From Methanosphaera stadtmanae (GTDB lineage: Archaea > Methanobacteriota > Methanobacteria > Methanobacteriales > Methanobacteriaceae), in the NCBI GenBank assembly GCA_015062825.1, contig SUTR01000022.1, positions 1 to 38,799 on the forward strand: DNA of 38,799 nucleotides. The letters run 5' to 3'. A model generated the notes under the pieces. That model searched no databases. It saw only the letters and a program-made list of their open reading frames with translations, and had not been told where the DNA came from. A program made the translations under genes and the position numbers. Shown here piece by piece: positions 2,560 through 19,477 of the stretch; the first letter of the stretch is position 1; the number at the start of each line of letters is the position of its first letter.

Positions 2560-4407
2560 TTATACTACTATCTCGCCCTTGACTTCAGGCTTTATCCTGA
2601 AGAGCAATGCATCCAATATTATTACAATTACAGAACCGATATTATGTACCAATGCACCGGTTATTGGTGTTAAGATTCCCATCATACCAAGTATCATTGC
2701 AATTGTATTTAACGTTAATGAGAATATTATCCCATACTTTATAGTATTATATGTTCTCTTTGACATTTTAAGTACATGAGATAGATAACGTACATCATCA
2801 TTAATAAATACAACATCAGCCGAGTCTATTGTAATATCACTTCCAATATTACCCATGGCCACACCTACATCGGCACGTTTTAGTGCTGATGCATCATTTA
2901 TTCCATCACCTACCATGATTACCTTCTTAAGTCGTCCTTTTAAGTCATCTACAAAATTCAACTTATCCTCTGGCAGACAGTTTGAATGTACATCATCAAT
3001 ATTAACCTGTCTTGCAATATCTGCTGCTACAGAATCATTATCTCCTGTCAGAAGAGTTACATCATATTTATCATCCCTTAATACCTTAATGAGATGTTCA
3101 ATATCCCGTTTAGGAGTGTCTTTTATTGAAAAGGTACCTATAAACTTATCATCATAGTATGTGTAGATAACAGTTGATGCATCATCAATATTATATACAT
3201 CTTTAGGTATTGTTATATCATATTTTTTAAACAGTTTTTCATTTCCTACCAGACACCTTTTATCATCTATAGTGCAGGTTATTCCCATACCCAATTCTAC
3301 TTCAAATTCTTGAGCATCATATAGTTGATTACCATCATAATAGTTTATTATTGCCTGTGATAATGGATGATCATAGTTTTTCTCAGCAGATGATGTTATT
3401 TTAACCAATTGCTCCTCTGCAATATTATTAAATGTCTTTACTGCAACTACTTCAGGTATTCCTGTGGTGATGGTTCCAGTCTTATCAAATACTATGTTGT
3501 CTGTCTTGTATAATGATTCCATCACTGCAGGGTTTTTTACCAGTATTCCATGTTTTGACAGGTTCCCCATTGAGGCAATTATAGCTGTAGGAGTTGCAAG
3601 TATTAATGCACACGGACAGAATACTACCAGTACAGTAACGGCATTGGTAATATTATGTGTTACAAGCAATGTATATATTGCCATTGTAAATGATATTCCA
3701 ACCACCCAATTTGCCACCTTATCTGCCTCTCTGATTATAGGAGTCTCCTCATTGTTTACCTCTTCAATTAATGATATGAGTTTCTGTAATGAATTAGATT
3801 TTCCATCAGCTGTTACATGGACTATTATTTGTCCATAATTATTTATAGTACCGGCATATACCTCATCATCTATTGTCTTGTCAACAGGCAATGATTCACC
3901 TGTAATTAATGATTGATTTACTGTTGTAGTTCCATTGATTATTTTACCATCTGCAGGTATTGTTTCACCAGGATTTATCTTAATGATATCATCCTTTTTA
4001 ATTGTCAATGCATCAACCATTGACTCAACATCATCCTTTATTAGTCTTGCCTGTGATGGTTGGAGTTTAATTAATTTCTCTATTCTAAGCTGTGTTGTGG
4101 ATACTGTTATCTCTTCAAGAAGTCCACCAATTTCCATTATCACAGCTATTTCTGCAGCTGCAAATACTTCACCAATATATAGTGATGCAATTATTGCAAT
4201 GGATACCAGCACATCTGCTTTAATGTCATGTTCCTTAACTAATCCTACTATTGATCCATAGATTATTGGAATTGCACATAGTACCAATGCAATATATGCC
4301 GGATCAATGGATGCTATTTTGATATTCATGTGACTTAGTATTACACAGAATATTGCTATGGCTATCCTCAGTATATCCTCTTTAAATTCATATATTTTTC
4401 CATTCAT
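2560..4407 (-). CDS. Heavy-metal-translocating P1B-type ATPase
   Basis: A 615-residue metal-pumping ATPase. Visible motifs are TGES (169-172, actuator), CPCALILATP in the sixth membrane segment (CPC at 264-266), the phosphorylated Asp in DKTGT (D308), HPLSQA of the nucleotide domain and GDGIND near residue 495. It has no N-terminal HMA metal-binding domain, so it is shorter than typical CopA or CadA. The CPC..ATPTA form is common in copper exporters, but the last membrane segment (ALVHNIGSVIV) lacks the MxxSS copper signature, so zinc, cadmium or manganese is equally possible. AGGAGGTG lies about 8 bases before the ATG. A palindrome at 4490-4511 sits in the promoter region. Confidence 0.85.
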   Translation of the reverse strand: MNGKIYEFKEDILRIAIAIFCVILSHMNIKIASIDPAYIALVLCAIPIIYGSIVGLVKEHDIKADVLVSIAIIASLYIGEVFAAAEIAVIMEIGGLLEEITVSTTQLRIEKLIKLQPSQARLIKDDVESMVDALTIKKDDIIKINPGETIPADGKIINGTTTVNQSLITGESLPVDKTIDDEVYAGTINNYGQIIVHVTADGKSNSLQKLISLIEEVNNEETPIIREADKVANWVVGISFTMAIYTLLVTHNITNAVTVLVVFCPCALILATPTAIIASMGNLSKHGILVKNPAVMESLYKTDNIVFDKTGTITTGIPEVVAVKTFNNIAEEQLVKITSSAEKNYDHPLSQAIINYYDGNQLYDAQEFEVELGMGITCTIDDKRCLVGNEKLFKKYDITIPKDVYNIDDASTVIYTYYDDKFIGTFSIKDTPKRDIEHLIKVLRDDKYDVTLLTGDNDSVAADIARQVNIDDVHSNCLPEDKLNFVDDLKGRLKKVIMVGDGINDASALKRADVGVAMGNIGSDITIDSADVVFINDDVRYLSHVLKMSKRTYNTIKYGIIFSLTLNTIAMILGMMGILTPITGALVHNIGSVIVIILDALLFRIKPEVKGEIVV

Positions 4408-5010: not shown

Positions 5011-5715
5011 TTAATTCACATATGATTTTAAGTCTTTAAGGTTCCATACTTCTTTTAAGAAATCAAATTCACATTTTTTCAAAGCTTTTATTAATTCTTT
5101 ATCAAAGGATATGAATATTAATTTATTATTTTTTAAATCATAATATTCACATAAATCCAGAATTATCATCATATCTTCTTTATGAATATTATTTTTGGTT
5201 AAAATGGATGTAACTTTCTTATATGATTCATTATGTTTAGGAATTAGGATTAGTTTCTGTAAAAAATTGTTTTTATATATTAAAGTACTTCTTTTAAGGT
5301 TTATTACATATTCCAATATGACTTTTCTAAGCTGGAATATATCCACATTATAGAAGTTATTTCTTTTCCAAATAGATTTTATTATGTCTTTTTTTACTTT
5401 TTTATATACTTTTTTATTTCAATATAAGTATTGTTTATTATTCTTTATAATAATGGAGGTAAATATTTCAAGATTTATGAATTCATCGGAATAATTATTT
5501 AATATTGAAATACAATCATATAAGAAAGTAGTTATGAAGTTTATTTTATTATCAATTACTTTGTTAATTTCCTCTTTTATATGTTCTGTATAATACATTT
5601 GATTATGAGAATCCTTTGCAAACTCTTTGACTAAAATATGATTAGGTTCAATTTCAAATAAATATGTTATAATAATATTTGTATCAAGACAGTATTCATC
5701 TAAATTAATTTTCAA
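5011..5715 (-). pseudogene. PIN-domain nuclease, copy 1, with internal stop
   Basis: A 235-codon frame homologous to the intact gene at 15328-16041. It starts at TTG 5715, overlapping the end of its partner gene by 11 bases, and begins with the PIN signature LDTNIIITYLFEIEP; the second acidic site is HIKEEINKV, the third region HKEDMMIILDLCEYYD and the last FISFDKELI. The frame is unbroken except for one TGA at 5419-5421 (codon 99), where the intact copy has an ordinary sense codon (..YEYANKSFKK). A product stopping there lacks the last acidic residues and should be inactive. TGA is a normal stop in nearby genes, so readthrough is unlikely but not excluded. Confidence 0.75.
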
Positions 5716-6298
5716 TAAACTCCATTGCTAACAATTCTTTCATACTTTTATCAGGCTCATTTAATCCAGTATAAAATTTATCATTGAACAATTTTTTATG
5801 CTCTTCTAACTTTGATTTATATAGTATATAATTATCTTCATATATATTACTGTCATTTTGTAAATCAAATATTTTACAATTTAAAACATTACTAAAATCA
5901 CTTAATAATCTATTAATAAAATTTAAAGAACAATAAATATTTTGTACTTCATCTTCAGTTAATTTATCCACATCATTACTTAAAATATTATTAGAAACAT
6001 CATTCAAGACAATTAATATATGATTTATCATTGACCAACAATCCATAAAATCATAAAAGAGAGTATTAGACAATTCATTATTATTAACAAGCAATGTACT
6101 TATCTTTGGTAAATATCTATCACATATATCACTTAAAAAATTAACCGAATCAATTAGAATAAATATTGAATATTCCTCATTTTTAAATATTTTCAAACGT
6201 TCAAAAGGAAGTCTGATAAAATCTAAAAAAGTAGAAATATTAACAGTATTCAATTCAATATTAGAAACATTCATTTTTGAAACAGTTGTAACATCCAT
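5705..6298 (-). CDS. Helical partner protein of PIN module, copy 1
   Basis: A 197-residue protein, probably mostly alpha-helical, without membrane segments or a known motif. It aligns with the protein of 16038-16589: both have an early L.D.I..P stretch, a Y.P.IS..L.NN...L.YDFM block near the middle, F.N.LN.K, and a K.F.DK.Y segment near the end. It is the first gene of a two-gene unit with the PIN nuclease. GGAGGTTAAATCTA lies directly before the ATG, so translation should be strong. Position and pairing suggest an antitoxin or regulator of the nuclease, but this is inference. With the nuclease broken here, it may act as an orphan. Confidence 0.65.
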   Translation of the reverse strand: MDVTTVSKMNVSNIELNTVNISTFLDFIRLPFERLKIFKNEEYSIFILIDSVNFLSDICDRYLPKISTLLVNNNELSNTLFYDFMDCWSMINHILIVLNDVSNNILSNDVDKLTEDEVQNIYCSLNFINRLLSDFSNVLNCKIFDLQNDSNIYEDNYILYKSKLEEHKKLFNDKFYTGLNEPDKSMKELLAMEFIEN

Positions 6299-6432: not shown

Positions 6433-6757
6433 CAACATCCAATTAAACATAAAACTCAACTAATCATAGTTACAACCCTATATACAAAAAAAAAACAACA
6501 ATAATACCAGCAAGTACATGTTTCACAATGCAAATCTCACAGACAACAACACAGGTAAAGTAGTATTCAAGATAAACGGTAAAACAGTTAAAGATGAAAA
6601 CAGTAAGGTAATCTATGCAAAAGTAGTAAACAACACAGTAGAATTTGAATACACATTACCAGAATCATATAAAGCTAAGATTATACTATTCCCAACTACT
6701 TTAATATCACCGGATTATGAACACATTGAAGATAGTAAAACTTTAACTGTCAATTAA
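6433..6757 (+). pseudogene. Adhesin gene 3' fragment 2
   Basis: From about 6433 the sequence follows the intact adhesin gene around 12970-13060 (ACTAATCATAG, then TTTCACAATGCAA.TCTCACAGAC) and then joins the final repeat of the same gene, ending in SKTLTVN and TAA at 6755-6757. It is therefore a chimera of the first and last Ig-like repeats. A 79-codon frame opens at ATG 6518 (TGKVVFKINGKTVKDENSK), but there is no signal peptide, and a local frame slip replaces the usual AKDYNITAV with AKIILFPTT. It is best read as a non-functional gene end or cassette. Confidence 0.7.
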
Positions 6758-7504: not shown

Positions 7505-9109
7505 TAACCTCCCACATCCATAAATACTAATTAACCTTCTATTTCGAATCAGATATGCCCACATATTCATTATACTAATTTTATTACATAGATTTCATTC
7601 ATACTTTTATATTTTTTAACAAATAAATAGGTTAAACGAATAAAAACATTACACTAAATCAAATTTTAACAATTAAAACAAACATAATCTCTATTCAACA
7701 ATAAACACTGAAAAAAAATAATATTCAAAATTAAAAATCCAAAAATATTAATAAAAACGAAAAAAAATAAGGAAAAATACTTTGAATAACTGGATGAAAA
7801 ATAATTATTTTTATTCATCAATTTCAAGTACCACTTTGAAATATAATTAAAAGCAGATAATCACCCACATACGTCAATTTTGACTGACAACCCCATAATA
7901 TGTATTACTATTTAACTTTATAATTTATTATTCAAGAAAGATAATACTCATAGGCATCATCTGAAAGAACCATACTAATTTAATTATCAAGTTAAATTTT
8001 AGGATAAAATCCATAGAATTTATGAAAATATGCAAGTTCAAAATAATTTTTATAATCTTCTATTTATTAAATAAAACTTCTATAATCTTTATTTATCATA
8101 TAAAAATAAGTATACTCCCCCCCTAGACAGTTAAATAATATCCAATTATAGAATAAACAAACACATATAAAGCATTATTGAAAATCAATTTAACACACTT
8201 AAACTTATTAAATAGATGGGTTTTGACTTAAAAATTACTAGCAGAAAAACTTTTTAATATATATTTCAATATTTTTACAAATCTAATAATTACATTAATA
8301 TTCTTATTTAATTCAAAACATTTATATATTATTATCATTATAATTATAAACATTGTTTAATTTATATTGAATATTGAAATTTATGAATTGAAAAGATTAA
8401 TACAGAATCAGAAAGGTAAACATCCCATAATAAATATGATAATGCAACTATAAAATAATAGAAAAAAGCATATAGAGTAAAATAATTAACCAATGGGTTT
8501 TAAAACTTTTTTGTTTAATGATTATGAAATTCATAGCATGAAAACATAAATAGTAAATAAACACAAGTAATACAATTTACCATTATTGTTTTGTTTAAAC
8601 CAATATTATGAGTTAAATTATCCAATCACATTTTTTTAACAAAATAATTAGAAAAATGATCCAAAACATTTAAAAAAAAAAATGATGGTGCCTTAAAATA
8701 AAGATATTTGAATCTTGATATTAACCTATAATATATAATACCAATAATATTTTAATATTATAAAAAACTTAAACATTAATATAATTAAGGATGAATCACT
8801 TTCAATTTATAATGTAATGGTTTTATTTGATGAAATATGGAGAAAACAATTAAATAATGTGAAAAAAAGGATTGTTCTTCCAAAATACAATAATTATAAA
8901 ACTCATAATATGAAACTAAAAACTTAATGGAATAATTATAGATGTTGATACATTTCATTAACTGGTTGTTTCTGTTGATATAAACATAAAACATTTAAAA
9001 ACAATGATGAAACATTTAATTTATAAAAAATATATTAAAAATAAATTAGATTAATTAAAAATTATTAGATTATTATGTTAATAATCTTATATTTTTCAGG
9101 TGATTAACC
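7505..9109. other. 1.6-kb region without a clear gene
   Basis: AT-rich DNA with no convincing gene. At about 7700-7760 a faint match to the adhesin repeat (AATAAACACTG..AAA, TATTCAAAA) suggests a fourth, strongly decayed adhesin fragment. A direct repeat lies at 8040-8210 (listed separately). A 36-codon frame at 8817-8927 and a longer minus-strand frame at 8785-8994 have no recognisable features or good ribosome-binding sites. The last 60 bases hold the leader of the Ntn hydrolase gene, with AGGTGATTAACC before its ATG. Confidence 0.4.
8040..8210 (+). repeat. Direct repeat R1 (adhesin upstream region)
   Basis: About 170 bases that match 10556-10725 closely, from AAAATAATTTTTATAATCTT through CAGACAGTTAAATAATATCC to ACACACTTAAACTTATTA. 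The other copy lies just upstream of the intact adhesin gene. R1 and R2 bracket the Ntn hydrolase/RelE operon. No adhesin coding sequence follows R1. Confidence 0.8.
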
Positions 9110-9916
9110 ATGACAATAGCTATTGCATTAAAGATTAATGATGGAATTGTTCTTGCAACCGATAGTGCATCAACTATAGTCGGTGAAGAAAATGAAGAAG
9201 GAGTACGTTCCGTTTATCATACTTATTTTACTGCAGATAAATTATTCAATCTTAAAAAAGGAAGTCCAGTTGGAGCCATTACTTGGGGAAATGGGAGTGT
9301 AAATAATGAATCAATTTCAACTTTGGTTAAAAATTTCAGAGAAAAAACAAAAGAAGAAGAATATGAATCTGTTGAAGTTATCGCTAATGATTTCAAAATA
9401 TTTTTAAAAAATAAAATTTCCCCAGAAACTTCGTTAGGATTTCTCATTGGAGGTTATTCTAGAGGAAAAGGTCATCCTGAAATGTTTTTGATAAGTATTG
9501 ATAAAGGCAGCATTAAAGAAATTGAAGAAATTAATCCAAATGATCCTCTTTCAATTTCATGGTTTGGAGAAACTATTTTCTTAAGTCGATTATTATTAGG
9601 GCTTGATAAAGAGTTGATAAATATAATTGAGGACAATGTTAATGATAAAAAAATTAGTAATAAAATCCTTAACGATATCCATGAAAAATTACAATTACCA
9701 TTGGGTGTTCCAGCAATGCCTATTCAAGATGCTATTGATTTAGTTAAATTTTTAGCAGACATATCTGTTAACTCATCAAGATTTGTACCGGGACCTCAAG
9801 TAATTGGAGGACCAATAGATATTGCAGTAATAACAAAACATGAAGGTTTTAAATGGATACAAAGAAAACATTATTATAATGAAAAGTTAAATTTAACTAC
9901 TATGGAGGATGAATAA
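9110..9916 (+). CDS. Proteasome-beta-like Ntn hydrolase
   Basis: A 268-residue protein whose start has the layout of proteasome beta/HslV-type subunits: MTIAIALKINDGIVLATDSAS. After loss of Met1 the N-terminal Thr2 would be the nucleophile; D18 matches the conserved Asp17 and K44 in ADKLFNLKKG the conserved Lys33, followed by a GAITWGNGSV strand as in the family. It is longer than a typical beta subunit (about 200), with an extra C-terminal part. No signal peptide, so it is cytoplasmic. GGTGATTAACC precedes the ATG. The next gene starts inside or just after its stop codon, so it is translated with the antitoxin/toxin pair. Peptidase activity and target are inferred, not shown. Confidence 0.7.
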   Translation: MTIAIALKINDGIVLATDSASTIVGEENEEGVRSVYHTYFTADKLFNLKKGSPVGAITWGNGSVNNESISTLVKNFREKTKEEEYESVEVIANDFKIFLKNKISPETSLGFLIGGYSRGKGHPEMFLISIDKGSIKEIEEINPNDPLSISWFGETIFLSRLLLGLDKELINIIEDNVNDKKISNKILNDIHEKLQLPLGVPAMPIQDAIDLVKFLADISVNSSRFVPGPQVIGGPIDIAVITKHEGFKWIQRKHYYNEKLNLTTMEDE

Positions 9917-9917
9917 T

Positions 9918-10142
9918 ATGAATCATTGTTTTTCCACATTCAAACCCACAACCAAATATAATGAACTAAATAACCAACATGTATGTGAAATTGTAGAAGA
10001 CTTAACTTTACAAACATCAACATTCAATATTCCCAAAACAAATAATTGCAGAGAATATCATGAATTTCTAGGAGAATTAAAAAAACTTCATGATAAAGTT
10101 GAATCTGATGATTTAAGTGATTTTACAGAGTTAAAATTATGA
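9918..10142 (+). CDS. Antitoxin-like protein of the RelE pair
   Basis: A 74-residue protein, acidic towards its C-terminus (KVESDDLSDFTELKL), placed directly before and overlapping by four bases (ATGA) the RelE-type toxin gene. The ATG at 9918 is chosen because GGAGG (9904-9908) lies 9 bases ahead; an ATG at 9909 would leave no spacing. No DNA-binding fold is evident from the sequence, so the antitoxin call rests on size, order and overlap. Its own family is not recognised. Confidence 0.6.
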   Translation: MNHCFSTFKPTTKYNELNNQHVCEIVEDLTLQTSTFNIPKTNNCREYHEFLGELKKLHDKVESDDLSDFTELKL

Positions 10143-10450
10143 ATAAATATAAAATAAAAATTATTAATTCTTGTCAAGATTTTCTTGATGGATTAAAGAA
10201 AAATAATTCGCATATTCATAATCAAATTTGCAACACCATAAAAGAGGTAATAGAAAATCCATTTAACAGTAAATTTAAACGATTAGAATATTCCGACAAA
10301 GATAGAAGAGCTCGCTCGGGAAACTTTAGAATAGTATTTTTTATAAAAGAAAATTATATTTTCATAACTAAAATCGAACAACGAAAAAATGTATATAAAT
10401 CAAGTGTCGGTTGTCCAAAAATGAGTAAAAAGAAATTAAGAAGTTTATAA
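10139..10450 (+). CDS. RelE/ParE-family toxin
   Basis: A 103-residue basic protein with the RelE-fold pattern: early KIKIINSCQDFLDGLKK, then FKRLEYSDKDRRARSGNFRIVFFI and a final strand ITKIEQRKNVYK. The R.R.GNFRIVF and R..VYK motifs are typical of RelE-type ribosome-dependent mRNA interferases. It overlaps the upstream gene by four bases, which is the usual order antitoxin-toxin. About 15 residues beyond the last strand are unusual but basic. The pair belongs to a three-gene operon with the Ntn hydrolase. Confidence 0.8.
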   Translation: MNKYKIKIINSCQDFLDGLKKNNSHIHNQICNTIKEVIENPFNSKFKRLEYSDKDRRARSGNFRIVFFIKENYIFITKIEQRKNVYKSSVGCPKMSKKKLRSL

Positions 10451-10845: not shown

Positions 10846-13584
10846 ATGAACAAGAATGTTAAAAGAATATTCTTTGTATCAATACTATTATACATGCTTG
10901 TAGGAATAACATCAGCAAACGCTACAGACCAAACCCTAGATGTAGCAATAGATGACACTACAGATACAATAACAGCTGAACAAACAACACCTACAACAAA
11001 TGATAATACCATTGAAACAACAAAGAATCTAGAAAAAACAGACAAAAACTTAAAAACAGCAAGTAAGATTGTTAATGCTACATCTAGATATAAAGAAGCA
11101 CGAACTGCAATACGAGAAATTGTTAATAATTCAGAATATGATGAATTAATAATAAATTTAAATCCTATAAACTATGCTGTTGGATCAAGCGGTTATAATC
11201 CCGGAGAATATAGTCGAAATATTATTATGAATGGTAATGGAGCTACATTTAGTGGAAAGTATCTTTACTTTAATAATAATTGTAATTTTACATTTAATGA
11301 TGCTACCATAAGTCATGAATTACATAATTATGTAAATATGACATTCAATAATATGACCATTATCGGAGTAATAGAAAATAAAGAAGAAGGAATACTCATA
11401 ATAAATAATAGTACATTAAATTCACAACTAACAAATTATGGAAAACTTGTAATATCAGATGATACAATATTTGGTGAAAATTTTGGTCTTACAAACAATG
11501 GTGAAATTATCATGAATGATACTAGTAAATTATTAGCTTATCGTCCTGTATATGATGGTGATTATGTTTTAGAAAATTTTACTTTAAATTCTGATAAAAC
11601 AAATACCGGTAATTTAACTGTGAACAATTGTATAATAAATGGTAAATTTGATAATTCTAATGATACTGATTTAATAATTAATAATTCTACTATTAATAAT
11701 TTAATTAATAATGAAGGAACACTTACATTAAATAATAGCATAGTCAATTCCACTATTAATAATTATGGTACAATATATATTGATAATAATACGATAATTA
11801 CTGATAATGCACAAATAATTGGTTTAGGAGACATTGTAACAAATGATATTACAAAATTACTACCATACATTGAATCTATAAATGGTAATTGGACTATTAC
11901 AGATATTTCATTAAATAAATCCTATAATTTTAATGGAAATATCTCATTAAATAATTGTAATATTACTACTGAAAATAATGTAAACTTCGGAATATTAAAC
12001 ATCAATAACAGTAATATTATCGTAGATGAAAAATCAAAATGGATTACAAATTATGGACTTATTGTCATTGACAATATTACTACAACAGGAGATATAACAA
12101 ACTATGGTGAAGTATATGAGGAAAACATACCTGAAGATTATGTTTATGATAATACATACCACATAATAAATAATGACACTATTAAAATATATTTCGATAC
12201 AACAAAAGCAAATAATTTAAGTATTCTTGTAAAAGAAGGCGACACACTTGACTTCCAAGGAACAATTGGTGGAGTAACAGGACTCTCAAGCCTAGTAATA
12301 AACAAACCAGTTAATATAATCACATCAACTAATGATGGTAGAATAGAAAACTTCAGCAGCATAACATACAACAATGGAGCTTCAGGATCTAATATAACAG
12401 GACTTTACACATACAACACCCAATTCTATGTAAGAAATGCACACAACATGGTATTTGATAACATATCAAATGTCGTAGTCTCTAAAGCTATTGGATGGGG
12501 TGTAGGACAAACTAGTATTGGACATAATTCAACAAATATCCTAGTTAAAAACAGCTACTTCTACACAAAAGACAACGGTGGAAGCAGTACCTTTGTATTT
12601 AACTGGGCTGACAACTCAACACTTGTTAACTCTACAGTTGAAGCAGATGGAAATGTGGGAAACCTAGTATATCTTACAACATACAATGTAGACATACCAA
12701 GTGGAACAATAGCAAACTGTAACAACCAAATACTTAACAACATTATTATAGGACCTGAAACACCAGCAGCTATATGTTGGGGTATAGTACTATCCGGTGC
12801 AAACAACAACATAGCAAACAACAGAATATACTATGTAGGTTCTGGAATAGTCAACCAATGGGGTAGCGGAATAACAGGTGAAGGAGTAGACGACAATGAA
12901 ACAAGCCTTGTAACAATAGAAAACAACACCCTCACCAACAACACCCACATAAAACACAAACCAACAAACGAACTAATCATAGACACAACCACATTCACAC
13001 CAGGAGAAACTACAACAATAACAGCAACTATACGCTTCACAATGCAAGCACTCACAGACATAAACAAAGGAAAAGTAACATTCAAAGTCAACGGTAAAAC
13101 ACTAAAAGACACAAATGGTAAAGTAATCTATGCAAAAGTAGTAAACGGAACAGCAACAATAGAAAACTACATAGTACCAGACACATGGAAAGAAGGCTCA
13201 ATAATCGAAGCAGTATACTCCGGATCCACACAATGTGATAAATTAACAAGTGAAAAAACAGAAATTACCCTAAATAAAGAAGCACCAACATTCACCATCG
13301 ATCCAGTAGAACCAGCAACAATTGGTAGTACAATAACACTAAAAGCAACAATCACAGACAACAACAAAGAAATAAACACAGGAAAAGTAGTCTTCAAAAT
13401 AAACGGTAAAACAGTCAAAGACGCTAACGGTAAGGTAATCTATGCAAAAATAGTTAACAACACAGTAATTGTTGAATATACATTGCCTGATTCATATAAA
13501 GCAAAGGATTATAATATCACAGCTGTTTTAATATCACCGGATTATGAACGCCTTGAAGATAGTAAAACTTTAACTGTCAATTAA
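10846..13584 (+). CDS. Large secreted adhesin-like protein
   Basis: A 912-residue surface protein. It starts with a signal peptide (MNKNVKRIFF..LLYMLVGITSANA) and a Thr-rich stretch. Residues of roughly 80-430 are Asn-rich repeats (NNSTINN, LTLNNSIVN) that look like a parallel beta-helix; 450-700 is a second, pectate-lyase-like beta-helix part (NNIANNRIYYVGSGI). The last 200 residues are two Ig-like repeats with KVNGKTLKDTNGKVIYAK and KINGKTVKDANGKVIYAK. No membrane anchor or pseudomurein-binding repeat is seen at the C-terminus. It belongs to the adhesin-like proteins abundant in gut Methanobacteriales. Its repeat R2 lies upstream and a terminator at 13607. Fragments of its 3' end are found at 4680, 6433 and 14855. 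Confidence 0.85.
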   Translation: MNKNVKRIFFVSILLYMLVGITSANATDQTLDVAIDDTTDTITAEQTTPTTNDNTIETTKNLEKTDKNLKTASKIVNATSRYKEARTAIREIVNNSEYDELIINLNPINYAVGSSGYNPGEYSRNIIMNGNGATFSGKYLYFNNNCNFTFNDATISHELHNYVNMTFNNMTIIGVIENKEEGILIINNSTLNSQLTNYGKLVISDDTIFGENFGLTNNGEIIMNDTSKLLAYRPVYDGDYVLENFTLNSDKTNTGNLTVNNCIINGKFDNSNDTDLIINNSTINNLINNEGTLTLNNSIVNSTINNYGTIYIDNNTIITDNAQIIGLGDIVTNDITKLLPYIESINGNWTITDISLNKSYNFNGNISLNNCNITTENNVNFGILNINNSNIIVDEKSKWITNYGLIVIDNITTTGDITNYGEVYEENIPEDYVYDNTYHIINNDTIKIYFDTTKANNLSILVKEGDTLDFQGTIGGVTGLSSLVINKPVNIITSTNDGRIENFSSITYNNGASGSNITGLYTYNTQFYVRNAHNMVFDNISNVVVSKAIGWGVGQTSIGHNSTNILVKNSYFYTKDNGGSSTFVFNWADNSTLVNSTVEADGNVGNLVYLTTYNVDIPSGTIANCNNQILNNIIIGPETPAAICWGIVLSGANNNIANNRIYYVGSGIVNQWGSGITGEGVDDNETSLVTIENNTLTNNTHIKHKPTNELIIDTTTFTPGETTTITATIRFTMQALTDINKGKVTFKVNGKTLKDTNGKVIYAKVVNGTATIENYIVPDTWKEGSIIEAVYSGSTQCDKLTSEKTEITLNKEAPTFTIDPVEPATIGSTITLKATITDNNKEINTGKVVFKINGKTVKDANGKVIYAKIVNNTVIVEYTLPDSYKAKDYNITAVLISPDYERLEDSKTLTVN

Positions 13585-13639: not shown

Positions 13640-13856
13640 AATAATTATCCATATTTCTCTATGTATCTATTTTTCAATTTAACTTTTTATTATTCTTAAA
13701 TATGATTATTCATCTTCACAGAATATAATTTTAGATTAAAAAGATTTTATTTAGCAGATAATTCCAAGTAGATATCAATAATATTAAAGAATATTGTAAA
13801 GTATTAAAGTTAATTATTACATATCATTATTTATCTAGTAAAAATAAGTGATGTTC

Positions 13857-14147
13857 ATGGTATATACTATAGAAGAAATTAGAAGAATCGTGGTTCCCAT
13901 AGCCAAAGAATATGGAGTTGCCAAAATAAGTCTTTTTGGTTCCTATGCCAAACAAAAAACAACTGAAAATAGTGATTTGGATTTTATAATGGACAAGGGC
14001 GATGTAGTAGGTTTGCAATATTTTTCATTATTGAGAAAATTGGAGAATGCATTCAATTGTGATATTGATCTAATTACAACTGGTTTTTCTAATAAGGACT
14101 TTTTAAATAGAATCAATAAAGAAGAAGTGTTATTGTATGAACGATAA
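13857..14147 (+). CDS. mntA: MNT-domain nucleotidyltransferase (MntA-like antitoxin)
   Basis: A 96-residue minimal nucleotidyltransferase. The signature GSYAKQKTTENSDLDF has the GS motif and the first two acidic residues; a third acidic site is in CDIDLITT. Such proteins are the antitoxins of HEPN-MNT (type VII) systems, where they AMPylate the HEPN ribonuclease. ATG 13857 is chosen because AAGTGATG lies close ahead; GTG 13848 and ATG 13851 are alternatives. The stop codon overlaps the start of the HEPN frame at 14137. Confidence 0.8.
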   Translation: MVYTIEEIRRIVVPIAKEYGVAKISLFGSYAKQKTTENSDLDFIMDKGDVVGLQYFSLLRKLENAFNCDIDLITTGFSNKDFLNRINKEEVLLYER

Positions 14148-14471
14148 GAAGTGAAAAAATTTAGAATATCTGTTATATCATTGTAATAGAATGCAAAGTC
14201 ATGTAGAATATTTTGGTGATGATTGGCCAAATACAGTTCTAATGAACATTATCAAGCAGCATGTGGATTAGAAATAGTAGAAATAGGAGAATATATCAAA
14301 AGGTTATCTCCTGAATTTTTAGAAGAACATGATAAAATAGATTGGAGTGGATTAATAGGATTAAGAATTATCCACGCACATCATTATGAAGGTATAATGT
14401 ATGATTTAGTGTGGGAAGTAATCAAAAAAGATATCCCTGAGTTAAAAGATTATTTAGAAAAAATATTATAA
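14137..14471 (+). pseudogene. HEPN-domain (DUF86) toxin gene, broken
   Basis: The frame from ATG 14137 reads MNDKK, a TGA stop, then KNLEYLLYHCNRMQSHVEYFGDDWP, and must shift frame near 14228 to continue as KYSSNEHYQAACGLEIVEIGEYIKRL to the TAA at 14469-14471. Joined, this is a DUF86-type HEPN protein of about 110 residues with the R-x4-H motif kept in LRIIHAHHYEG. One nonsense codon and one frameshift mean that no full product is made. The MNT partner before it is intact. An 82-residue C-terminal piece could be made from 14223. Confidence 0.75.
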
Positions 14472-15327: not shown

Positions 15328-16041
15328 TTAATCTTGTGTTCTGTTGTTTATTAATCGTCGAATATCTTGAAGGTTATATATGTTCTTTATGAATTTAAAA
15401 TTACATTTAACTAAAGAATCATAGAAATTATTATCAAATGTTATGAATATGAATGTTATATTGTGTTTTAAATAATATTCATAAATGTCTAGGATTATTT
15501 CGTTATCTTCTTTATGAGAATTATTTTTTTCTAATAAATGATTTATTTTTTCATGTTTATTGATATGATTAGCTATAATAATACATTTTGAATAGAGTTC
15601 ATCTTTATATTTATTGATAATGTTTTTAAAGGAAATATCAAAGTTTCTTAATCTTTTTAGTAAATTAAATCCATCCATATTCTCATCACAAGATTCTTTC
15701 CATATTTCTTCTAATACTGTTTTGACATCATTTTTTTTAAATGATTTGTTAGCATATTCATAAAAGTCATGTTGTTGGATAAACATTTTAATAAACTTAT
15801 TTTTATTAAATATCATATTATTATATTCATCTAAAAATATTATTGCATCTGCCAGTATTTGTTTAATAATAATTACCTTAATTTCTACTATTTTGTCACA
15901 TTCATTGAGTATATGTTTTGTTAAGTAGAAATAATCTTCGGATTGATTAATGTACTCTTGCATTATAGTATAGTTTGGTTCAATGAAAAATAAGTAAGAA
16001 ATTATAGTATTAGTATCAAAACATACGTTATCAAGATTCAT
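15328..16041 (-). CDS. PIN-domain nuclease, copy 2 (intact)
   Basis: A 237-residue protein with the pattern of a PIN ribonuclease. The first acidic site is in CFDTNTIISYLFFIEP (D9), the second in HILNECDKI, the third in NSHKEDNEIILDIYEYY and the last in FIFITFDNNFYDSL. Between the second and third sites about 100 residues are inserted, so it is much longer than a VapC toxin (about 130). It starts at ATG 16041, overlapping the stop of its partner by four bases (ATGA). It has no signal or membrane segment. The related gene at 5011-5715 is broken by a TGA. A toxin or RNA-cleaving defence role is inferred from the fold and pairing. Confidence 0.75.
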   Translation of the reverse strand: MNLDNVCFDTNTIISYLFFIEPNYTIMQEYINQSEDYFYLTKHILNECDKIVEIKVIIIKQILADAIIFLDEYNNMIFNKNKFIKMFIQQHDFYEYANKSFKKNDVKTVLEEIWKESCDENMDGFNLLKRLRNFDISFKNIINKYKDELYSKCIIIANHINKHEKINHLLEKNNSHKEDNEIILDIYEYYLKHNITFIFITFDNNFYDSLVKCNFKFIKNIYNLQDIRRLINNRTQD

Positions 16042-16589
16042 TTATCAGCAAACCCCAGTGGCATTATTTTTTTTACTATTTTCTCATTACTTTCATTATT
16101 GGACTCATCATAATATTTATCATAAAATATTTTTGTATTCTCATCTAATTTAAGTTTATATCGGTTATATGCCATAGTATATTCTTCTTTAGATATATTT
16201 TTATTAATATACTCATTTTTTATGTTTAAGATATTATGAAAGTCATCTAAGATATAATCTACAAAGAGTAAATTTTCATATATAGTATCTAGGAATGGAT
16301 CTATATCAACAAATACTTTGGTTGTTATTTCATCAAGTTTATCAAATATATAACTTGACATTAATCTTACTTCCATAAAATCATATAGCAAGTCACTCTT
16401 ATAATTGTCATTATTTTTTAATATTGATGATATTAGTGGAAAATACTTGTTGAAATTTGTAATATTCAAATCAATAGAATTGATTATTTCAGGATTGGAT
16501 ACTTTATTTTTATTCATTAATGAATTATATAATGGAATTTGAATTACATCCAATAAATTTTTTAAATTATAATCAATGCATAAAGACAT
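16038..16589 (-). CDS. Helical partner protein of PIN module, copy 2
   Basis: A 183-residue protein homologous to that of 5705-6298: LLDVIQIP near the start, YFPLISSILKNN and LLYDFME in the middle, FHNILNIKNEYI and a KIFYDKYYDESN segment near the end. Identity between copies is limited, so the two modules are not recent duplicates. GGTG lies 5 bases before the ATG. It is the first gene of the two-gene unit, as antitoxins usually are. No known antitoxin DNA-binding motif or HEPN R-x4-H motif is seen. Its function is unknown. Confidence 0.65.
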   Translation of the reverse strand: MSLCIDYNLKNLLDVIQIPLYNSLMNKNKVSNPEIINSIDLNITNFNKYFPLISSILKNNDNYKSDLLYDFMEVRLMSSYIFDKLDEITTKVFVDIDPFLDTIYENLLFVDYILDDFHNILNIKNEYINKNISKEEYTMAYNRYKLKLDENTKIFYDKYYDESNNESNEKIVKKIMPLGFADK

Positions 16590-18322: not shown

Positions 18323-19477
18323 ATGGTATTGATAAACAAAGGTTTGGAAATTCGAATATATCCCAAGGATGAACTTATTCCACTGATACATCAGAACATT
18401 GGAAATGCACGATTTGTATGGAATAAGGTATTGGAACGATACAATCAGATGTATGAAGAAGCTATGGAAAGTGAAAAAGAGATTTATCCATCATTAATCT
18501 TGTTTAATAATATTCTTAAAGATTTGAAAAAAGAATTCACATTTTTGAAAGATAGTGAATCCACCAGTTTACAACAAGTACTAAGAGACTTATCACAATC
18601 TTTCACACAATTTTTCAATAATACTTCCAATTATCCGACATTTAAATCTCGTAAAAAGACTAAAAAAACATTCAGGGTACAAAATAATAACAATAGTATA
18701 AGGGTAGAAAACAACAAGTTAAGAGTACCCATACTGGGATTTATAAAATATAAAACAAGTGATGAATATCAGATATATCTTCATACTTCTAAAATTAACA
18801 ATGCAACAATTAAATTCAAAAATGGAAAATATTATGCTGTTGTTAATGTAGAAATTGATTATACTCCATGGCCACATTGTCGTGGTAATGTAGGCATAGA
18901 TATGGGTATGAAAACATTTGCAACATTGGATGACGGTACTAAGATAGCCAATTTAGACCTCAAACATGAAAATGAAATGATAGAAAAATACCAAAGAAAA
19001 ATGAGCCGACAAAAATATGGAAGCCACAACTACTACAAAACACTACAAAAATACTGGAAATGGATAGATAAAAGAAATAATAAACTAGACGATTTCCTAC
19101 ATAAAATAAGCTACACCATTGTCCGCAATCATCAAAACATATTCATGGAAACACTAAACATCAAAGGCATGATGCAAAACAAAAAACTTGCACCCAAACT
19201 ACAAGCAATAAGCATAAGCAAATTCATCAGCATGATCAAATACAAATGCCACTGGAACAACAGAAACTTCATACAAGTAGATATGTTCTTCCCATCAAGC
19301 AAACTATGTAATGTATGCAAAGAAAAATACGAAGAACTAACACTCGACATGAGAACATGGACATGCCCCCATTGTAACACAGAACACGACAGAGACATCA
19401 ACGCAGCAAAAAACATACTATACGAAGGATTAAAAATACTAGCCAGTAATTTGTTAGATGAAACAACAATAACATAA
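18323..19477 (+). CDS. tnpB: TnpB RNA-guided nuclease
   Basis: A 384-residue TnpB, complete. The N-terminal part has the usual IYP...NIGNARFVWNKVLERY stretch; the RuvC-like nuclease has D193 in VGIDMGMKTFATLDDG, E276 in FMETLNIKGM and D358 in DRDINAAKNI, with a Cys4 zinc finger (CNVC..CPHC) between the last two. All three catalytic acids are present, so it should be active. TnpB proteins cut DNA matched by an omega-RNA from the element's right end and help keep the element at its site. That RNA overlaps or follows the 3' end of this gene. An ATG at 18323 fits the family start; GAAGGTATAC lies before it. Confidence 0.9.
   Translation: MVLINKGLEIRIYPKDELIPLIHQNIGNARFVWNKVLERYNQMYEEAMESEKEIYPSLILFNNILKDLKKEFTFLKDSESTSLQQVLRDLSQSFTQFFNNTSNYPTFKSRKKTKKTFRVQNNNNSIRVENNKLRVPILGFIKYKTSDEYQIYLHTSKINNATIKFKNGKYYAVVNVEIDYTPWPHCRGNVGIDMGMKTFATLDDGTKIANLDLKHENEMIEKYQRKMSRQKYGSHNYYKTLQKYWKWIDKRNNKLDDFLHKISYTIVRNHQNIFMETLNIKGMMQNKKLAPKLQAISISKFISMIKYKCHWNNRNFIQVDMFFPSSKLCNVCKEKYEELTLDMRTWTCPHCNTEHDRDINAAKNILYEGLKILASNLLDETTIT

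Follow-up and report, generated by a model that had tools for sequence, protein, structure and literature searches.

Ordinary type II toxin–antitoxin modules are thought to depend on Lon, Clp and other general AAA+ proteases (PMC8165232). In a Methanobacteriaceae genome, a gene for a proteasome-like Ntn hydrolase forms a tightly packed operon with genes for an antitoxin and a predicted RelE-fold toxin (Table 1), which raises the question of whether a toxin–antitoxin module can bring its own protease, or whether the hydrolase has merely come to lie beside the pair. Here, the window denotes the whole stretch of 38,799 nucleotides that was analysed. As the preliminary description of this DNA had claimed, the antitoxin gene starts at the hydrolase stop, its ATG lying 1 nt past it, and the start of the toxin gene shares 4 nt (ATGA) with the end of the antitoxin gene, an overlapping gene pair being one mark of type II modules. 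The antitoxin ORF could open at 9909; the GGAGG upstream suits the ATG at 9918 instead, and homologous antitoxins likewise begin at the equivalent methionine, with gaps of +1 to +4. The naming of the middle gene as an antitoxin was upheld by its position and C-terminal tail, but not by any recognisable antitoxin domain.

Table 1. Features of the operon and its surroundings (window coordinates)
Feature	Position	Strand	Basis or remark
Shine–Dalgarno AGGTGAT of hydrolase gene	9098–9104	+	Sequence, just 5' of ATG 9110
Proteasome-like Ntn hydrolase, 268 aa, intact ORF, ATG start	9110–9916	+	ORF, alignment, model
Shine–Dalgarno GGAGG of antitoxin gene, within hydrolase 3' end	9904–9908	+	Sequence
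Antitoxin, 74 aa	9918–10142	+	
Antitoxin N-terminal half, ~40 codons, tracks hydrolase type	9918–10037	+	Boundary approximate
Antitoxin C-terminal half (putative toxin-binding tail) and stop, tracks toxin type	10038–10142	+	70% identity to L113 tail
RelE-superfamily toxin, 103 aa, ATGA overlap with antitoxin	10139–10450	+	Profiles and model
Paralogous two-gene unit	5011–6298	-	Copy at 5011–5715 apparently split into two ORFs
79-aa ORF	6518–6757	+	Nearly repeats the C-terminal end (~13340–13584, + strand) of the 912-aa protein
912-aa adhesin-like protein	10846–13584		
MNT/HepT-type toxin–antitoxin pair	13848–14147 and 14223–14471	+	Pfam Polbeta/NTP_transf_2 and HepT-like
Paralogous two-gene unit	15328–16589	-	
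IS605-type TnpB (OrfB)	18323–19477	+	Pfam

The hydrolase has no match in Pfam. A PADLOC scan returned nothing. In an alignment of 24 homologues, Asp18 and Lys44 never vary, and position 2 is always occupied by Thr or Ser (24/24); Thr2 is the N-terminal residue after removal of the methionine. These residues match the Thr1/Ser1–Asp17–Lys33 triad of proteasome homologues (PMC8665760), the equivalence of Asp18/Lys44 to Asp17/Lys33 being set by motif and order, not by superposition. An AlphaFold2 model with the 24 homologues as input reached a pLDDT of 86 and a pTM of 0.83. In a Foldseek search with this model, beta subunits of the 20S proteasome came out on top (E 6e-9; TM scores normalised to the target reached 0.72), with Anbu further down the same list. 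The hydrolase is accordingly modelled with the proteasome alpha/beta-type Ntn fold. Both points had been anticipated: the proposal of Thr2, Asp18 and Lys44 as a proteasome beta catalytic set is borne out by their conservation in the 24 homologues, and structure prediction, named beforehand as a place where the idea could fail, returned the Ntn/proteasome fold. Identity with a canonical 20S proteasome beta subunit was rejected, since the protein scores 11.6 bits against the archaeal proteasome beta model TIGR03634, far below its cut-off of 224.

The hydrolase belongs to an uncharacterised group of proteasome homologues in archaea, bacteria and phages. Its relatives in named records include Methanobrevibacter, and in wide genome samples it is rare and patchily distributed. 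Fuchs, Alva and Lupas (2021) described 22 new families of proteasome homologues, for example PMI-1 to PMI-6, and saw nothing in their genomic surroundings that hinted at a particular function (PMC8665760). The present hydrolase has in common with these families the proteasome fold, the Thr/Ser-Asp-Lys triad, the lack of a propeptide and the occurrence in prokaryotes and phages. Like PMI-2 to PMI-6, it carries extra helices (residues ~167–194 of the model) between the third and fourth conserved helices (H3/H4); it is this insertion and the taxonomic range, compared with the published descriptions (PMC8665760), that liken it to the PMI group. Unlike the families as published, two subfamilies described here have a clear genomic context. 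No relevant text on a proteasome-like protein in a toxin–antitoxin operon was found, nor one among the listed papers that cite PMC8665760, in full-text searches that covered only a minority of subscription papers and preprints.

The toxin is assigned to the RelE superfamily by profile and predicted fold. It matches the RelE-like toxin profile phrog_1213 (E 3e-9) and RelE3/RelE/YoeB profiles in the PDB (E 4e-7), and its model matches RelE/YoeB at a target-normalised TM of ~0.76. In a family-wide search, all five of its closest homologues (43–100% identity) adjoin the hydrolase or a hydrolase remnant, while none of 25 more distant RelE loci, examined in roughly 3-kb stretches, has a hydrolase nearby. 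Where the upstream ORF of these distant loci could be read, most show a different, RHH/VapB-like antitoxin N-terminal half, with weak Pfam support. In a set of 254 ORFs, the antitoxins of L049 and L047 match ordinary antitoxins through their tails (E 3e-5 and 2e-4) but not through their heads; the tail of the window antitoxin has no ordinary match in the same set. Further, no credible Pfam domain, for DNA binding and autoregulation or otherwise, was present in the middle proteins scanned. Collectively, the region that normally binds DNA appears to have been replaced, in the hydrolase-linked modules, by a segment matched to the hydrolase. These modules share toxin families and detectable antitoxin C-terminal tails with type II RelBE/ParDE, VapBC-like (PIN) and MazEF/PemIK modules, but differ from them in lacking a recognisable DNA-binding domain in the antitoxin and in encoding a hydrolase upstream.

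The operon is not an isolated case. In 42 of 43 curated loci with a hydrolase of the ~270-aa type, the next ORF begins between -45 and +25 nt from the hydrolase stop, often at exactly -8, an arrangement far beyond chance. A small overlapping gene nearly always comes after the hydrolase, and many loci then carry a toxin of the RelE, PIN or MazF family, typed by Pfam for representatives and by clear resemblance for the remainder. After the ~270-aa hydrolase, a RelE-type toxin occurs in Methanobacteriaceae (the window, L003 and L045–L049), a PIN toxin in Acidobacteriota (L007, L011, L014, L015, L016, L018, L021 and L101) and MazF/PemK in L006, L100, L103 and L105; the partner genes of L012, L102 and L044 are of no recognised kind. 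A second, distant hydrolase subfamily of ~400 aa in Methanobacteriaceae repeats this three-gene arrangement, with three distinct toxins of the RelE superfamily (L112, L113, L116 and L117). In a tree of 74 hydrolases, which took one each of the identical pairs L004/L044, L009/L077, L014/L108 and L018/L107, RelE accompanies hydrolases of both subfamilies, PIN those of a single clade, and MazF crops up at several separate points; the toxins have been gained several times independently. The search for hydrolase homologues beside toxin genes, the other check on which the idea could have failed, found them next to several unrelated toxin families.

Toxins are not universal. The other loci of the ~270-aa type, from alphaproteobacteria, Firmicutes and phages, encode just a small partner, of ~45–65 aa, and no recognisable toxin, and a group of 307–320-aa paralogues in the genus of the window (L002 and L051–L067) adjoins a conserved DNA-glycosylase-like gene instead. 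In profile searches, the orphan partners had no detectable homology to the antitoxin heads. A Tyr-x-Tyr...Gly-Ser motif, noticed by eye in both, was discarded when such searches could not tell it apart from background ORFs. The antitoxin heads of the ~400-aa group have a motif of roughly N-x-I/V-L/M...L/I-P-x-D/N-Y/F-G...A in common across three toxin types.

The antitoxin is a mosaic, as L113, a locus with a ~400-aa hydrolase, shows. Compared with the window, its hydrolase is 31% identical and its toxin 61%, the last 33 residues of its antitoxin are 70% identical (82% to those of L003) and its antitoxin head is unalignable. Compared with L112, in turn, its hydrolase is 60% identical, its antitoxin head (first 45 residues) 62% and its toxin only 25%. 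Judged by these identities, L113 is a chimera: its toxin and the tail of its antitoxin are of the window type, its hydrolase and the head of its antitoxin of the second. Mantel tests point the same way: head similarity correlates with hydrolase similarity (rho 0.48, p 0.019) and tail similarity with toxin similarity (rho 0.55, p 0.002), and head and toxin are unrelated (rho -0.13, p 0.77). Hydrolase and toxin similarity also correlate (rho 0.43, p 0.02), and with nine loci in two hydrolase clades the tests are statistically modest, so that the L113 chimera is the stronger argument. In archaea and bacteria alike, the N-terminal half of the antitoxin follows the hydrolase type and the C-terminal half the toxin type, a pattern that points to the protease as a dedicated switch for toxin release. 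The hydrolase is very probably tied in function to the antitoxin head.

Loss of the hydrolase is also telling. Only about the last 30 hydrolase codons are left in L039/L154, and L024/L050/L156 have lost hydrolase residues 1–150 and the triad with them; in both cases, the antitoxin and toxin ORFs are intact. In L109 and L128, hydrolase and toxin decay together. Provided that the toxins of the deleted loci are active, the antitoxin needs no hydrolase to work; this argues against an essential chaperone-like role and fits either a releasing protease or a separate effector.

The best explanation, to which we give a probability of about one half, is a three-gene toxin–antitoxin module whose own proteasome-like peptidase acts on an exchangeable antitoxin head and so releases the toxin. 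The antitoxin would consist of two exchangeable parts. Its C-terminal tail would bind and block the RelE mRNA interferase, as suggested by kinship with ordinary RelE-antitoxin tails and by co-variation with the toxin; its N-terminal segment, where ordinary antitoxins carry a DNA-binding domain, would be recognised by the co-encoded hydrolase, as suggested by the co-variation of the two. Methionine aminopeptidase would expose Thr2, and the hydrolase, once activated or more abundant, would most likely cleave or degrade the antitoxin from the head without an ATP-dependent unfoldase, whereupon the freed RelE would cut mRNA and growth would halt. Physical contact, proteolysis and a trigger, be it stress or a virus, are what we infer here. 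No AAA+ partner or trigger was found at these loci, and the lack of such a partner would fit an unstructured segment as the point of entry. Similarly, the hydrolase deletions fit a releaser, which can be lost safely. A known protease that acts on an antitoxin without being of the AAA+ kind is alike in principle, although its fold differs from that of the window hydrolase.

Several observations count against release: the DNA-glycosylase-like neighbour of the 307-aa paralogues, the missing AAA+ partner and trigger, and the correlation between hydrolase and toxin. Further, the many hydrolases with only a small partner imply that toxin control is not the sole role of the family, and as orphan partners lack detectable homology to antitoxin heads, the idea of a substrate is not needed for them. 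The original proposal of a dedicated hydrolase controlling toxin release is sustained in part, by the Ntn fold and the repeated association with toxins; proteolysis of the antitoxin would be the putative action, and toxin control not the only role of the family, given the toxin-less loci.

The strongest rival, possible though somewhat doubtful, handles those toxin-less loci better than proteolytic release does. On this view the hydrolase would itself act as an effector, a protease that arrests growth or serves in defence, and would be inhibited by the small protein encoded downstream. A hydrolase with an orphan partner would then be a complete two-gene system, and the three-gene form would arise by fusion of the inhibitor to the tail of a RelE, PIN or MazF antitoxin, yielding a bifunctional antitoxin that holds two effectors. 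This would explain the small overlapping partner beside nearly every hydrolase, with or without a toxin, as well as the co-variation of head and hydrolase, the tolerated loss of the hydrolase and its cargo-type positions in phages and satellite phages. However, it presumes that the putative hydrolase is toxic, and proteasome-like peptidases that lack an unfoldase are not known to act as potent toxins.

An unlikely alternative is that the hydrolase does not degrade its partner but makes a single, specific cut in it or ligates it to a different protein. Connectase, a proteasome homologue of methanogens, works as a specific ligase (PMC8665760), and the small partners resemble dedicated substrates. 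Against this, no conserved cleavage motif was found across the partners, and the two-helical S3/S4 insert described for connectase (PMC8665760) is absent from the model of the window hydrolase.

Mechanistically, the nearest parallel is the toxin–antitoxin–chaperone (TAC) module, whose ChAD sequence is transferable (PMC5105189). As in TAC (SecB-like) modules, there are three genes, the third component is paired with a short exchangeable antitoxin extension, and one kind of third component serves unrelated toxin families (PMC5105189). By the same logic of an antitoxin segment specific to a third component, the hydrolase could bind and protect the antitoxin head, a stabilising role that we regard as improbable. 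In TAC modules the third component is SecB-like and required for neutralisation; here it has a predicted peptidase fold with intact catalytic residues (conserved in 24/24), the segment is N-terminal, at the site of the DNA-binding domain, and loss of the third component appears to be tolerated. Were the hydrolase needed for neutralisation, its deletion in two lineages should have been lethal, unless the toxins are inactive, and a chaperone-like role was rejected as the main reading on account of those loci with antitoxin and toxin intact. Finally, mere hitch-hiking, with hydrolase and toxin genes piling up in the same mobile islands without a functional link, would suit the patchy distribution and the MNT/HepT pair and IS605-type TnpB in the window, but is very improbable, as the order is fixed, the genes overlap or are nearly contiguous, and the independent associations and the L113 mosaic contradict it; the earlier suggestion of an accessory gene joined by accident is disfavoured on the same grounds.

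Should proteolytic release be correct, proteasome homologues that had no informative context when discovered would gain a function and a testable substrate, and there would be a toxin–antitoxin design in which the releasing protease lies in the operon, matched to the antitoxin through an exchangeable segment. With natural swaps such as L113, the old problem of how an antitoxin comes to be degraded at the right moment can be tested directly, and the antitoxin heads could be used as portable, unfoldase-free degrons. More broadly, there may be a general class of protease-gated modules, in which short, exchangeable recognition segments, each paired with a proteasome-like peptidase, have repeatedly been grafted onto RelE, PIN or MazF antitoxins in place of DNA-binding domains and the toxin-less pairs are the core unit in phages, satellites and bacteria; the case for this class is evenly balanced.

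Some further observations concern the surroundings of the operon and its relatives. The operon is flanked by a fragment of an adhesin tail on one side and a complete adhesin-like gene on the other, and is perhaps at a site of insertion or recombination. The second toxin–antitoxin pair, of the MNT/HepT type, lies 3.4 kb downstream. In the two paralogous units on the minus strand, the second protein opens in a PIN-like manner (FDTNTIISYLF and LDTNIIITYLF) and has no credible Pfam match. L003 is labelled as a Clostridium MAG; its hydrolase is 81% identical to that of the window, and the label is likely due to binning contamination of the public MAG. In L118, the orphan partner gene is duplicated behind a single hydrolase (~2754–2888 and 3079–3213).

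The ~400-aa hydrolase is also carried by a Streptococcus satellite phage and prophage (L142 and L145), a Providencia phage (L143), L144 and L146, usually with a small downstream ORF and where accessory cargo is typically found, such as next to lysis genes or at one end of the element; a scan of viral_contigs with this hydrolase type gave no matches. On plasmids of Rhizobium gallicum (L148) and Mesorhizobium (L151), it lies within ~2 kb of multiubiquitin and ThiF/E1-like genes, a context that possibly links a proteasome homologue to a bacterial ubiquitin-like pathway.
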